A DNA stretch of 64,000 nucleotides, from positions 2,418,001-2,482,000 of the forward strand of contig NZ_LWLN01000001.1 in NCBI RefSeq assembly GCF_001953745.1, read 5' to 3'. How positions within the stretch are numbered: position 1 is the stretch's first letter; every line of letters starts with the position of its first letter. Below, one piece after another: positions 28,676-32,668 of this stretch. Origin of the DNA: Natrinema saccharevitans. Lineage in GTDB: Archaea > Halobacteriota > Halobacteria > Halobacteriales > Natrialbaceae. A program made the position numbers and the translations under genes. A model generated the notes under the pieces. The model saw only the letters and a list, made by a program, of their open reading frames with translations, was not told the DNA's origin and did not search any database.

Positions 28676-29860
28676 CTATCCCGTCTCGTCAGTTGCGTCC
28701 TCGAGCAGGTCGATCACGTTCTCACGGCCGATCCGTAGCTTTTCGACGTCGTTTTCCGCCGCCATGCCCGAGACGACTCGCGACGTCTTCGAGGCCGACC
28801 ACTCGAGTTCCTCGGCGATCGCGGCCTGGCGCATCCGACCGCCGTTTCGCTCGAGAAGCGCGCGGACGCGATCCTCGTCCGTCGCGAGGTCGGCGGGCAC
28901 TGACGACGCGGCGGTCGATGATACCGAAGATGTCCCGCTCTCGGCTCGAGGCTCGTTCGCGGCGGGCTGTTTCGTGGTGTCGTCCGAACCGTCGTCCGGC
29001 GATCCGGTCGGTTCGGAGACCGAGTCACTCCCGAACCGGGGCCACGAGAGGGCTCGAGTGACCTCATCGCGGCCGAACGCGGCCACGACGACGCCGAGGA
29101 TCGCGAGGATAACGAGTGTTCCACCGAGCAGGAACGAAAGCCGAGGACTCCCTGCCGTTCCGTCGGTATCGCTCTCGGCCGCCGAGTCGGACCCGTCGAA
29201 GCGGACCGTCGGCTGTCGGTCGGCGAACTCCTTCGGTCCTCCCCAGACGACGGTCGTGCCGTCGACCTCGTCCGGCGGTGGCGAGGTTTCAACCGGCGCG
29301 TATCCAGTCGGTGGGACGATTCGAAGCCGGTCGTCCTCGCCGAGATAGAGGCCGCCCTCGAACACGTCTCCGACGATCATCCCGTTCCCGTCGACCGCGG
29401 CGAAGTTTGACCACCGGAACGAGTACGTGACCGTTCCCCACCGTCGGGGGACCTCCTGAATAGAGGTCTCGGCCCGGAACCCGGACGCGTTCATCGATCG
29501 ACCGGTCGACTCCGACGCGCTGGAAACGACGCCAGTCATGCGGCGCTCGAACTCCTCGACGTAGGAGTCCCGGTCGCTTCGGAACTGCCCCTGAAAGGCC
29601 TCGTAATTATCGACGTCCGAGTCGTTTTCGAGCCGCGTGCGAACCGTTACCGACCAGCGTGCAGCCCCGTTCTCGGCGATCGCGATTCGCGTCACCGTCG
29701 TATCTGCCTCGGGCGTCTCCGCGGCTCGGACCGAGGGGACGCCGTCGGTGGTCGTCTGGATCGAGTGGCCGACCGCCGACCCGGCCGCGATCGGGACGGC
29801 ACCGATCGTAAGCATCGCCGCGAAGACCACGACGGTGACTCGATCGAGTGAGTGACGCAC
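28676..29860 (-). CDS. membrane-anchored winged-helix regulator with extracytoplasmic sensor domain
   Basis: 394 residues. A signal-like segment (VTVVVFAAMLTIGAVPIAAG, residues 8-27) leads to an external domain (about 58-212) with RMTGVVSSASESTGR, FRWSNFAAVDGN and PPTGYAPV. A single membrane helix spans 241-262 (LSFLLGGTLVILAILGVVV). A low-complexity linker (about 275-325) joins it to a C-terminal winged helix (326-386: DRVRALLERNGGRMRQAAIAEELEWSASKTSRVV, split here). The topology is that of a one-component sensor that regulates from the membrane. The external domain resembles that of the PGF-CTERM protein at 31916-32668. Divergently transcribed from the acidic-repeat protein gene. Confidence 0.8.
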   Translation of the reverse strand: MRHSLDRVTVVVFAAMLTIGAVPIAAGSAVGHSIQTTTDGVPSVRAAETPEADTTVTRIAIAENGAARWSVTVRTRLENDSDVDNYEAFQGQFRSDRDSYVEEFERRMTGVVSSASESTGRSMNASGFRAETSIQEVPRRWGTVTYSFRWSNFAAVDGNGMIVGDVFEGGLYLGEDDRLRIVPPTGYAPVETSPPPDEVDGTTVVWGGPKEFADRQPTVRFDGSDSAAESDTDGTAGSPRLSFLLGGTLVILAILGVVVAAFGRDEVTRALSWPRFGSDSVSEPTGSPDDGSDDTTKQPAANEPRAESGTSSVSSTAASSVPADLATDEDRVRALLERNGGRMRQAAIAEELEWSASKTSRVVSGMAAENDVEKLRIGRENVIDLLEDATDETG

Positions 29861-29883
29861 GTTCAGTCACGCTTTCGAGAGTC

Positions 29884-29892
29884 GTTACATAA
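29884..29892 (-). promoter_or_regulatory. TATA box of the membrane regulator gene
   Basis: The minus strand reads GCTTATGTAAC across 29884-29894, with the AT core about 28 nt before the ATG at 29860. This spacing predicts a leaderless mRNA. Confidence 0.5.
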
Positions 29893-29910
29893 GCGTACTG
29901 TCCCAGCGCC

Positions 29911-29940
29911 GCAAACGAGTGCAAATCGGTGCAAACGGGC
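29911..29940. promoter_or_regulatory. three 10-bp phased direct repeats (candidate operator)
   Basis: GCAAACGAGT, GCAAATCGGT and GCAAACGGGC follow one another exactly 10 bp apart (29911, 29921, 29931), so every GCAAA faces the same side of the helix. The array lies about 20 bp upstream of the regulator's TATA box and about 60 bp upstream of the divergent gene's TATA box. This is the position expected for a shared binding site of the divergently encoded winged-helix protein. Binding is inferred and not shown. Confidence 0.5.
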
Positions 29941-29997
29941 GGGGGACGTGGTCTTCGTCAGTGCAACTCGGCGGGAATCGAGCCCAGTATCGGCCCG

Positions 29998-30006
29998 GTT
30001 TATGTG
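29998..30006 (+). promoter_or_regulatory. TATA box of the acidic-repeat protein gene
   Basis: GTTTATGTG lies 24-32 nt before the ATG at 30030. The 13-bp string GTTTATGTGGCCG recurs at 47397, also about 30 nt before a start codon, which supports the promoter reading. Confidence 0.6.
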
Positions 30007-30029
30007 GCCGATGGCCCGTGATACGATCG

Positions 30030-31919
30030 ATGAGAAATCGACGACTACTGATCGTCGCGATGGCCGTGGTACTCTGTACGAGTGTTCTCGGCCCGGCGGT
30101 CGTCGTGGGAACGGCGACCCAGACGGAATCGAGTCAAGACGAACCGAACGACACCTCCGTGACCGTCACGACCGGTGCGCAGCTGTCGACGGTCGTCACC
30201 GCGACCAGCGACGACGTGCGCAGTGACTTCGAGAACACCGCGTTCGACGAACGCATGAACCGGAGTAACGACACCGACCGCGCGACCGCGATCGCCGAGC
30301 GTGCGGCGGCTCTCGAGAACCGGTCGGCGACGCTCCGAGCCGAGTACGAGAGCGCGACCGAAGCGTACGAGGCCGGCGAGATCGACGAGTCGGCATACGC
30401 CCAGCGGCTCGCGTCGCTGAACACGCGGGCGCAAAACGTCGTCTCGAGCTACGATCGGTTCGAGGAACGCGTCGCATCGGTCGAGGAAGTCGACCGGCGT
30501 GCCGCCAACGTGACGAGCGACGAGATCGCCGACCAGCGGGCGACGGTCGCCGATCTCACGAGTTCGGGTACCGACGCGCTACTCCGACAGTTCACCGGCG
30601 AAGCGGGCGGGAACGCGGAGATCGAGACCGACGATGGCGTCTCGATCGAGGTCGAGACCGACGACGGCGAACGGAGTCGGGAATACGAGCGACCTCGGGA
30701 CGGGAACGGATCGCTGGCGATCTCCCAGACGGACGCGCTCGCCGCGGCCACCGACGCTCTCTCCGCGGCGGACGGAAACAGTAGTTGGACGCTCGCGGAA
30801 GCGGAAACCGACGAAGACGACGGCGTCTACGAGTTCGAGTTCGTCCTGACTGGAACCGAGGCCGGCGAGGCCGAGGCGAGCGTCGACGGCGAGACGGGTA
30901 CCGTCTTCGAACTCGAGGAGGAGATCGAAACTCGAGGCGACGACGAAGCAGACGATGCGGACGACGAAGCAGACGATGCGGACGACGAAGCAGACGAAGA
31001 CGAAGCAGACGAAGACGAAGCAGACGATGCGGACGACGAGGACGACGAGCGCCTCGTCGTTCTCGTCGCGTCCGGTTCACCCGGACCCGGCGAGGAGGTG
31101 ACGCTGCAGTTGCTCGCGAACGGCCAGCCGGCAGCGAACGTGTCGGTCACCGTCAACGACCAGTCAGTCGGCGAGGCCGATGGCGACGGGGAACTCACGA
31201 TCACCCTGCCGCGCGACGAGGCCGAGATCGAAGCCGAACGCGGAGACGCCGAGAGCGAACTCGAGTTCGAGTTCGCCGAAGAGTCCGACGACGAGAACGA
31301 CGACGAGAACGACGACTCACAGTTCGACGCCGACGCGACCGTCGACAACGGTACCGTCACCGTCTCTGCGACGTTCGACGAGAGCCCGGTCGCAGGCGCG
31401 ACCGTCGTCGCGAACGACGAGACGGTCGGGACGACGGGCGAGGACGGCACGATGTCGTTCGCTCTCGACGACGATACCGACGAACTCGAGATCGAGGTAC
31501 TCCGTGGCGAACTCGAGTCCGAACTCGAGTTCGACCTCGAGAGTGACGGGGATGACGAAGCGGACGACGAAGACGAGGACGAAGAAGATGACGAAGCGGA
31601 CGACGAGGACGAGGACGAAGAAGATGACGAAGCGGACGACGAAGACGAGGACGAAGAAGATGACGAAGCGGACGACGAAGACGAGGACGAAGAAGATGAC
31701 GAAGCGGACGACGAAGACGAGGACGAAGAAGATGACGAAGCGGACGACGAAGACGAGGACGAAGAAGATGACGAAGCGGACGACGAAGACGAGGACGAAG
31801 AAGATGACGAAGCGGACGACGAAGACGAGGACGAAGAAGATGACGAAGCGGACGACGAGGACGAGGACGAAGAAGATGACGACGAGGACGACGACGAAGA
31901 CGACGAACTTGATCGATGA
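30030..31919 (+). CDS. secreted acidic-repeat protein with PepSY-like and Ig-like domains
   Basis: 629 residues. A signal peptide (residues 1-30, RRLLIVAMAVVLCTSVLGPA) leads to a helical Ala/Glu/Arg-rich part (about 60-180) with several N-glycosylation sequons. A PepSY-like unit follows (ISQTDALAAATDAL ... YEFEFVLTG ... GETGTVFELE). Then come an Asp/Glu linker and two related beta domains (EVTLQLLANGQPAANVSV; GTVTVSATFDESPVAGATV), each of carboxypeptidase-regulatory/Ig type. Residues 510-617 are nine copies of a 12-residue acidic repeat, ending in DDELDR with no anchor. The start at 30030 puts the signal peptide first and fits the TATA box. Stop overlaps the next ATG by 4 nt. Confidence 0.78.
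   Translation: MRNRRLLIVAMAVVLCTSVLGPAVVVGTATQTESSQDEPNDTSVTVTTGAQLSTVVTATSDDVRSDFENTAFDERMNRSNDTDRATAIAERAAALENRSATLRAEYESATEAYEAGEIDESAYAQRLASLNTRAQNVVSSYDRFEERVASVEEVDRRAANVTSDEIADQRATVADLTSSGTDALLRQFTGEAGGNAEIETDDGVSIEVETDDGERSREYERPRDGNGSLAISQTDALAAATDALSAADGNSSWTLAEAETDEDDGVYEFEFVLTGTEAGEAEASVDGETGTVFELEEEIETRGDDEADDADDEADDADDEADEDEADEDEADDADDEDDERLVVLVASGSPGPGEEVTLQLLANGQPAANVSVTVNDQSVGEADGDGELTITLPRDEAEIEAERGDAESELEFEFAEESDDENDDENDDSQFDADATVDNGTVTVSATFDESPVAGATVVANDETVGTTGEDGTMSFALDDDTDELEIEVLRGELESELEFDLESDGDDEADDEDEDEEDDEADDEDEDEEDDEADDEDEDEEDDEADDEDEDEEDDEADDEDEDEEDDEADDEDEDEEDDEADDEDEDEEDDEADDEDEDEEDDEADDEDEDEEDDDEDDDEDDELDR
31557..31880 (+). repeat. nine tandem 36-bp repeats encoding an acidic 12-mer
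   Basis: The units start at 31557 and recur every 36 bp without interruption. Each encodes EADDEDEDEEDD. They are identical except that units 2 and 9 have a synonymous GAA to GAG change at codon 5. A weaker tandem (GACGACGAAGCAGACGATGCG, 21 bp in full) occurs near 30938-31040 in the same gene. This near-perfect identity indicates recent copying by slippage or recombination, so copy number is likely variable. Confidence 0.95.
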
Positions 31920-32668
31920 GGCGTGGAACTGACCGGGACCGACTGCTGCCGAACGGCACGTATCGAGCGGGACTCCTGTCAGTCGTCCTCGTCGGACTGC
32001 TCCTGACGGGGAGCGTCGCTGCGTCCCTCGACGGCGCGCACAGCACTGCTCGCTCGCAGGAAACCGACGCCGACTCAGCGTTCGAGGTCGCTCTCGATTC
32101 CGACGGCGACGCGACGGTGATCGTCCACGTCACGTTCGACCTGAGCGACGAGGCGGATCGGGCGGCCTTCGAATCGCTCGAGGCGAACGAGACGAAACGG
32201 AGTCAACTCGAAACCCGCACTGAACGGCGATTGCAGACGGTCGCGACGAGCGCGGCCAACGAGACCGGTCGCGAGATGGCGATCGAAGACACGCGCACGT
32301 CCTTCGAGACAGACGAAGGGACCGATCGCGGTATCGTTTCCGTCTCGGCGACCTGGACCGAATTCGCGGCTACCGACGACGATCGGCTGACTGTCACCGA
32401 GCCGTTCGCCAGTGGCTTCACGTCGGAGCGGCCCGTCGTGATGGCTCTCCCCGAGGGCTACTCGCTCTCGGCGTCCACGCCGGAGCCGAGCGAGCGAACG
32501 GACGGACGCATCGTCTGGGACGCGAACACGTCGCTCGAGGGATACGAGGCGGTCGTTACTCCCGCGGACGAATCGGCGGATGAGGGGACCGACGAACAGC
32601 CTGGATTCGGCCTCGGGGCAGCAGTTGCGGCGATCGCCGGGAGCGCGTGGCTGTACCGCCGCCGGTAA
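31916..32668 (+). CDS. PGF-CTERM-anchored surface protein sharing the regulator's sensor-like domain
   Basis: 250 residues. A hydrophobic N-terminus (AGLLSVVLVGLLLTGSVAA, about 18-36) acts as signal. The ectodomain (about 55-215) parallels that of the membrane regulator: a strand pair (VIVHVTFDLSDEADRAAFESL), ATSAANETGREM, the TWTEFAATDDD segment and ALPEGYSLSAS. The end is PGFGLGAAVAAIAGSAWLY followed by RRR, a PGF-CTERM signal (PGF at 229-231) processed by archaeosortase A, with replacement by a lipid anchor. The ATG overlaps the acidic-repeat gene stop, so the two are co-translated. Confidence 0.8.
   Translation: MRRGTDRDRLLPNGTYRAGLLSVVLVGLLLTGSVAASLDGAHSTARSQETDADSAFEVALDSDGDATVIVHVTFDLSDEADRAAFESLEANETKRSQLETRTERRLQTVATSAANETGREMAIEDTRTSFETDEGTDRGIVSVSATWTEFAATDDDRLTVTEPFASGFTSERPVVMALPEGYSLSASTPEPSERTDGRIVWDANTSLEGYEAVVTPADESADEGTDEQPGFGLGAAVAAIAGSAWLYRRR

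Follow-up and report, generated by a model that had tools for sequence, protein, structure and literature searches.

Membrane-tethered winged-helix transcription factors that are encoded beside a gene for an ectodomain partner, in a compact cassette, are known from the co-component systems VtrA/VtrC and ToxR/ToxS, in which a cytoplasmic DNA-binding domain forms the N terminus of the regulator and the same operon encodes a lipocalin-like protein as its partner (PMC9214523). Transmembrane transcription regulators (TTRs), defined as proteins that combine a predicted DNA-binding domain with at least one transmembrane region, include the archaeal ArnR and ArnR1, and the available part of a survey of TTRs gives single-pass proteins as the commonest kind (PMC10269533). 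Little is known of how archaea relay information from their surface to their genes when no two-component kinase takes part. Here we describe a three-gene divergent locus at positions 28676 to 32668 of a 64,000-nucleotide stretch of Natrinema saccharevitans DNA (contig NZ_LWLN01000001.1, positions 2,418,001 to 2,482,000; hereafter the window), in which a single-pass regulator faces an operon for a secreted acidic protein and a surface protein. We read the locus, with modest confidence, as a conserved and self-contained haloarchaeal signalling cassette, in which the outside proteins would be part of the sensor and the winged helix of the regulator would act on phased repeats. Linkage of the genes and their joint movement across the class point to an undescribed archaeal mode of surface sensing. 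Since the module is compact and widespread and has a predicted operator, sensor, partner and target could be tested at one locus.

The likeness to co-component systems is one of logic only. The haloarchaeal order is reversed, with an exported N terminus and a C-terminal winged helix, and the parts differ. The partner genes are adjacent, as in the co-component systems, but at most loci they diverge from the regulator instead of sharing an operon with it. One haloarchaeal partner shares the sensor domain itself, and the more frequent partner is a third protein, the acidic DUF7096 one; a heterodimer of ectodomains is hypothetical here. The regulator fits the TTR definition, with transmembrane helix and DNA-binding domain in one protein; the available part of the TTR survey is a general census in which the cassette is not described. 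Furthermore, ArnR carries its helix-turn-helix at the N terminus (PMC13286277), unlike the window regulator. Among haloarchaea, activation through repeats that adjoin the transcription factor B recognition element (BRE) of a divergent promoter has a precedent in GvpE, which acts at gas-vesicle promoters and shares with this locus the divergent promoter pair, the short repeats beside BRE and TATA box, and the local target; GvpE is, however, leucine-zipper-like, and its upstream activating sequence consists of two 8-nt elements 4 nt apart, in contrast to the 10-bp-phased TGCAAA found here (PMC4390858). DdfA/RdfA of Haloferax was rejected as a characterised member, DdfA being an unrelated HalOD1 protein (PMC10869688), as was CsmR, a 13-kDa winged-helix protein distinct from the window regulator (PMC13286277). 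A search of the main text of mostly open-access papers found no mention of DUF7345, DUF7343, DUF7096 or DUF4897, and no prior description of the cassette. In Pfam, DUF7345, DUF7343 and DUF7096 are families without assigned function (PGF-CTERM being the exception), and the cassette offers a role for all three, which public annotation files under unrelated names; for instance, RefSeq names the three proteins of Halobaculum roseum DUF4897, DUF4198 and PGF-CTERM.

Domain make-up of the regulator and its two exported partners

The regulator (394 residues; 28676..29860, minus strand) has a signal-peptide-like N terminus, a DUF7345 ectodomain (residues 58-187; 29300..29689, minus strand; E 7e-33), one further hydrophobic segment that forms the single transmembrane helix (residues 237-269; 29054..29152, minus strand), and a DUF7343 winged-helix DNA-binding domain (residues 325-385; 28706..28888, minus strand; E 2e-27). 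Both domain scores exceed the curated Pfam cut-offs (114 bits, cut-off 27.5, for DUF7345; 95.4 bits, cut-off 27.6, for DUF7343), which places the protein among DUF7345-DUF7343 regulators. A second DUF7345 domain (residues 57-189; 32084..32482, plus strand; E 4e-24) lies in the surface protein (250 residues; 31916..32668, plus strand), the start codon of which overlaps the stop of the acidic gene as ATGA. This protein carries a signal peptide and ends in a PGF-CTERM anchoring signal (32597..32665, plus strand) of marginal score, at 19.3 bits against the Pfam cut-off of 18.8 and 19.0 against 24.5 for TIGR04126; the window's genome also encodes archaeosortase A (ArtA; 323.9 bits against 75), the second mark of a PGF-CTERM surface protein besides the motif. 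Profile-profile comparison of the regulator and surface-protein DUF7345 domains with hhalign gave a probability of 99.8 (E 1e-27), and the two ectodomains belong to the same family.

The acidic partner (629 residues; 30030..31919, plus strand) has a signal peptide and no C-terminal anchor. Its conserved part (30159..30929, plus strand) comprises a DUF7096-like helical bundle and a PepSY-like alpha/beta domain, and is followed by two Ig-like modules of carboxypeptidase-regulatory or Fn3-like type (31050..31544, plus strand) and by a polyacidic tail (residues 508-629; 31551..31916, plus strand), 122 residues of which 91% are D or E and the DNA of which is a minisatellite, a 36-bp tandem repeat of 9.9 copies with 97% match. 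DUF7096 (PF23379) scored 33.7 bits against a cut-off of 27 for 30150-30521 in the genome search, was unlisted by hmmscan for the full-length window protein, and was found in the N-terminal part of the acidic proteins of six of seven relatives (best E 2e-13). The PepSY identity probably holds, relying on Pfam matches in two of these seven relatives (best 3e-5), where Fn3_arc, DUF4198 and bMG3-like matches were also obtained. A structural model of the protein (mean predicted local distance difference test, pLDDT, 77) shows a bundle of long helices, with local pLDDT of about 80-90, and a C-terminal alpha/beta domain, the PepSY-like one, at about 90, with no match in the Protein Data Bank at E < 0.001. 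No direct homology was detected between DUF7345 and the acidic partner.

The initial annotation, made from the sequence without database searches, had given the same three open reading frames and coordinates, and its description of the regulator as a winged helix with an external domain and one membrane helix, its assignment of PGF-CTERM to the last protein and its view that the regulator and surface ectodomains are similar all agree with these results. Its secreted PepSY/Ig-like protein stands as to secretion, whereas its PepSY and Ig-like domains match only weakly when the window protein is taken by itself and draw their support from relatives; the polyacidic tail is likewise present, although the 108 residues ascribed to it were slightly too few. 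The domain make-up and the shared ectodomain are far beyond chance.

An AlphaFold model of the regulator ectodomain (residues 49-224; mean pLDDT 94.3, predicted template modelling score 0.88) runs from strands through two long helices to further strands. The nearest solved folds, namely FMO, ribophorin I, the N-domain of M1 aminopeptidase and LppM, are all weak matches, and therefore no function is drawn from the structure. FMO was rejected because a Foldseek E of down to 3e-7 came with a TM-score of ~0.3 and a root-mean-square deviation (rmsd) of ~14; VIA (Z 9.5, rmsd 6) and LppM (Z 7.9) were also set aside.

Conservation and joint inheritance of the cassette

Sampling of 60 high-scoring standalone DUF7345 loci from 391 Halobacteria genomes showed that a DUF7096-like gene adjoins 55 of them, and that 48 have a DUF7345-DUF7343 regulator no more than 5 kb away (32 divergent, 14 co-directional and 2 convergent). 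Loci were assigned to three classes: in class i, a DUF7345 regulator has a strong DUF7096 gene nearby and divergent; in class ii, the type found in the window, a divergent regulator faces an acidic DUF7096-like gene followed by the DUF7345 surface gene; and in class iii, regulator, acidic and surface parts are all co-directional. The surface protein is present in 6 of 29 genomes of the genus, and in every case it is adjoined by an acidic DUF7096-like gene and by a DUF7345 regulator in divergent orientation. The synteny comparison that the initial annotation had proposed thus finds the three families together, with the cassette kept across many Halobacteria families while its flanks change. Of the outcomes that the initial annotation had named as refuting its idea, the two examined here, missing co-occurrence in other genomes and unrelated ectodomains, were thus not borne out.

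Class-ii regulators stand apart by score, with 53 proteins at or above 230 bits and the next at 186. By hand counts from two tables, the surface gene adjoins about 41 of the 53, and the acidic gene is kept at about 49. Among ten class-ii regulators without an adjacent surface gene, eight still face a divergent acidic DUF7096-like gene (neither partner is present at G217 and G255), which argues that regulator and acidic gene form the core. The DUF7345 surface gene is a frequent third part, and the acidic DUF7096-like protein is the commoner partner. The class-i pair is found in 14 of 15 genomes checked. Of the six DUF7345 domains encoded in the window's genome, the surface protein has one and regulator-length proteins have the other five.

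In a tree of 132 DUF7345 domains, standalone proteins and regulators fall on the two sides of one branch (support 100/100), and the simplest reading of this split is therefore that the surface copy arose once and that classes ii and iii separated afterwards. Furthermore, protein distances across 42 class-ii loci are strongly correlated (regulator-surface 0.90, regulator-acidic 0.87, acidic-surface 0.90), with none of 1000 permutations reaching values as high. Two cassettes from other families (G108 of family f1 and G396 of family f3) nest among those of family f4 on the regulator side of the tree as well as on the standalone side, and a plasmid of Halobaculum roseum carries a further cassette. 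These findings are consistent with transfer as a unit, and the three genes seem to have passed from family to family together.

Phased repeats between the divergent promoters

The divergent promoter region (169 bp, 29861..30029) contains a candidate operator that the initial annotation had missed. Array 1 (29910..29935, plus strand), which reads CGCAAA-CGAG-TGCAAA-TCGG-TGCAAA and thus comprises three 10-bp-phased half-sites, adjoins the BRE and TATA box of the regulator, the TATA-like element being CTTATG (29888..29893, minus strand; CTTATAC in relatives). Array 2 (29962..29977, plus strand), consisting of TGCAAC and a degenerate CGGGAA 10 bp further on, lies upstream of the operon's TATA-like element (TTTATG, 29999..30004, plus strand) and is a perfect pair in one relative (L088). 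Given the 10-bp period, the half-sites would lie on one face of the helix.

When one mismatch is allowed in each half-site, 23 of the 39 intergenic regions of class ii, the limits of which depend on start codons guessed by script, contain direct-repeat pairs of TGCAAA at the exact 10-bp spacing, as compared with a mean of 0.17 and a maximum of 1 in shuffled sequences; other spacings yield 0-4. Across the 3.98-Mb genome, a pair with at most one mismatch is found three times, two of them at this locus, and the perfect triple YGCAA array at 29910-29935 is the sole copy genome-wide, so that no further triple array points to a wider regulon. Class i and iii loci tested have no TGCAAA repeats, except for weak matches in L151 and L152. 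At about six of the ten class-ii regulators without a surface gene, such repeats are found close to the regulator or to the acidic gene. The motif also has matches in G010 and G020, at a distance from any recognisable DUF7345 gene. The simplest reading of the arrays, drawn from their sequence and placement, is that the class-ii regulator binds the phased repeats and controls transcription in both directions.

How the parts may work together

In the signalling cassette that we favour, the DUF7345 domain of the single-pass regulator would lie outside the membrane and its DUF7343 winged helix inside. The outside proteins would be part of the sensor: the acidic protein may bind something and present it to the DUF7345 domains, the surface copy of DUF7345 may act as co-receptor or decoy, and a change in the ectodomain would pass through the single transmembrane helix to the winged helix. 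Acting on the phased TGCAAA repeats upstream of both divergent TATA boxes, the winged helix would thereby set expression of the regulator's own gene and of the operon. The domain make-up, the conserved linkage, the co-inheritance and the repeat arrays with their uniqueness are shown by computation. We infer that the regulator binds the repeats and that the surface proteins touch and modulate it or compete for its signal, as the initial annotation proposed for the surface pair; the direction of control is likewise part of this inference. More tentatively, and at somewhat less than even chances, the cassette may represent an archaeal co-component-like class, in which the sensor domain was copied once to a surface partner, the polyacidic DUF7096 protein serves as the signal or as its mediator, and switch and operator spread as a unit.

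Several observations weigh against this scheme. The surface gene is absent at about 10 of the 53 class-ii regulators, and no acidic gene was found beside those of G217, G255 and G382 (the surface gene of G382 is located on another contig), so that neither partner is strictly needed. No TGCAAA pair is present at one mismatch per half-site in 16 of the 39 class-ii regions, mostly of family f4. Both flanks of the regulator's transmembrane segment are acidic on average, making the charge rule uninformative for topology. Class labels were set by score gaps, and many of the loci are related rather than independent, so the counts overstate the number of independent cases. Finally, an operon that is no more than a target of the regulator would also be expected to be inherited with it, and the correlation alone does not discriminate between the two.

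An alternative that we consider less likely is that the regulator senses an outside cue alone and the surface proteins are only its output, forming a local protective or adhesive acidic coat, with the shared DUF7345 domain reflecting a common ligand in place of signalling between the proteins. A local operator with a unique site suits a regulator with one target, the Ig-like modules, acidic tail and surface anchor resemble those of coat proteins, and lone class-ii regulators do exist (L205, L206). However, DUF7096 proteins stand beside DUF7345 regulators in three separate locus types, including the near-universal class i, as would be expected of a functional partner more than of an arbitrary target, and the surface protein bears the sensor's own domain. 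That the tail acts as a cation buffer, binding Ca or Mg, with the regulator reporting ion occupancy or surface charge, is improbable. All class-ii relatives initially examined have an acidic tail, the sequence and repeat units of which change; the window protein is 71% identical to its G051 counterpart over most of its length, with total lengths that differ, and the Ig-like modules vary between relatives and are absent in some (L072). What is conserved in the tail is charge and composition, and neither length nor sequence, and no evidence was found for the ion or peptide signal suggested in the initial annotation. Haloarchaeal proteins are acidic in general, however, the tails of class-iii partners are weaker or absent, none of 41 DUF7345 ectodomains checked contains Cys, and no metal site is evident in DUF7345. 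The notion of unrelated neighbours, brought together by chance or by a shared old chromosome region, is already refuted by the synteny counts and retains negligible probability, as the linkage holds with different flanks, in two arrangements, on the Halobaculum plasmid and across families.

Across class-ii regulator ectodomains, the motif QEVPRRWG is strongly conserved (alignment A4, window 29189-29716) and is absent from the surface copies, making it a candidate partner-contact site. One genome (G045) is a natural case of cassette partners separated: the acidic and surface genes adjoin a broken regulator remnant at one locus (L079, C1:4664000-4681000), and an intact class-ii regulator at 0.27 Mb has a short DUF7096-like remnant as its sole neighbour (L207, C1:263000-276000). 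Three loci without the surface gene (L198, L199 and L204) encode another small acidic protein next to the regulator, which looks like a replacement for the missing surface protein and is DUF7096-like in L198 and L204. A second, orphan pair of DUF7096-like and DUF7345 genes in G119 has no regulator nearby (L090, C1:1075000-1090000). Within the window's own genome (G000), the class-i pair lies at C1:134817-136218 (L074), with a pilin-like open reading frame just past the DUF7096 gene, and two further DUF7345-DUF7343 regulators, at C1:1444119 (L076) and 3063142 (L077), have no recognised DUF7096-like or DUF7345 neighbour. Surface DUF7345 matches with one in-frame stop occur in G358, G380, G107, G081, G129, G125 and G122, and the reading frame of L127 is truncated; the stops possibly reflect decay or a match that extends past the true start. 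In many family-f4 relatives (L148, L149, L153, L157, L158, L163, L164, L166, L167, L169-L171 and L174), the surface protein ends in LPTPL or PTPL and a transmembrane segment, without PGF-CTERM, an ending that is possibly another sorting signal or merely a transmembrane anchor.

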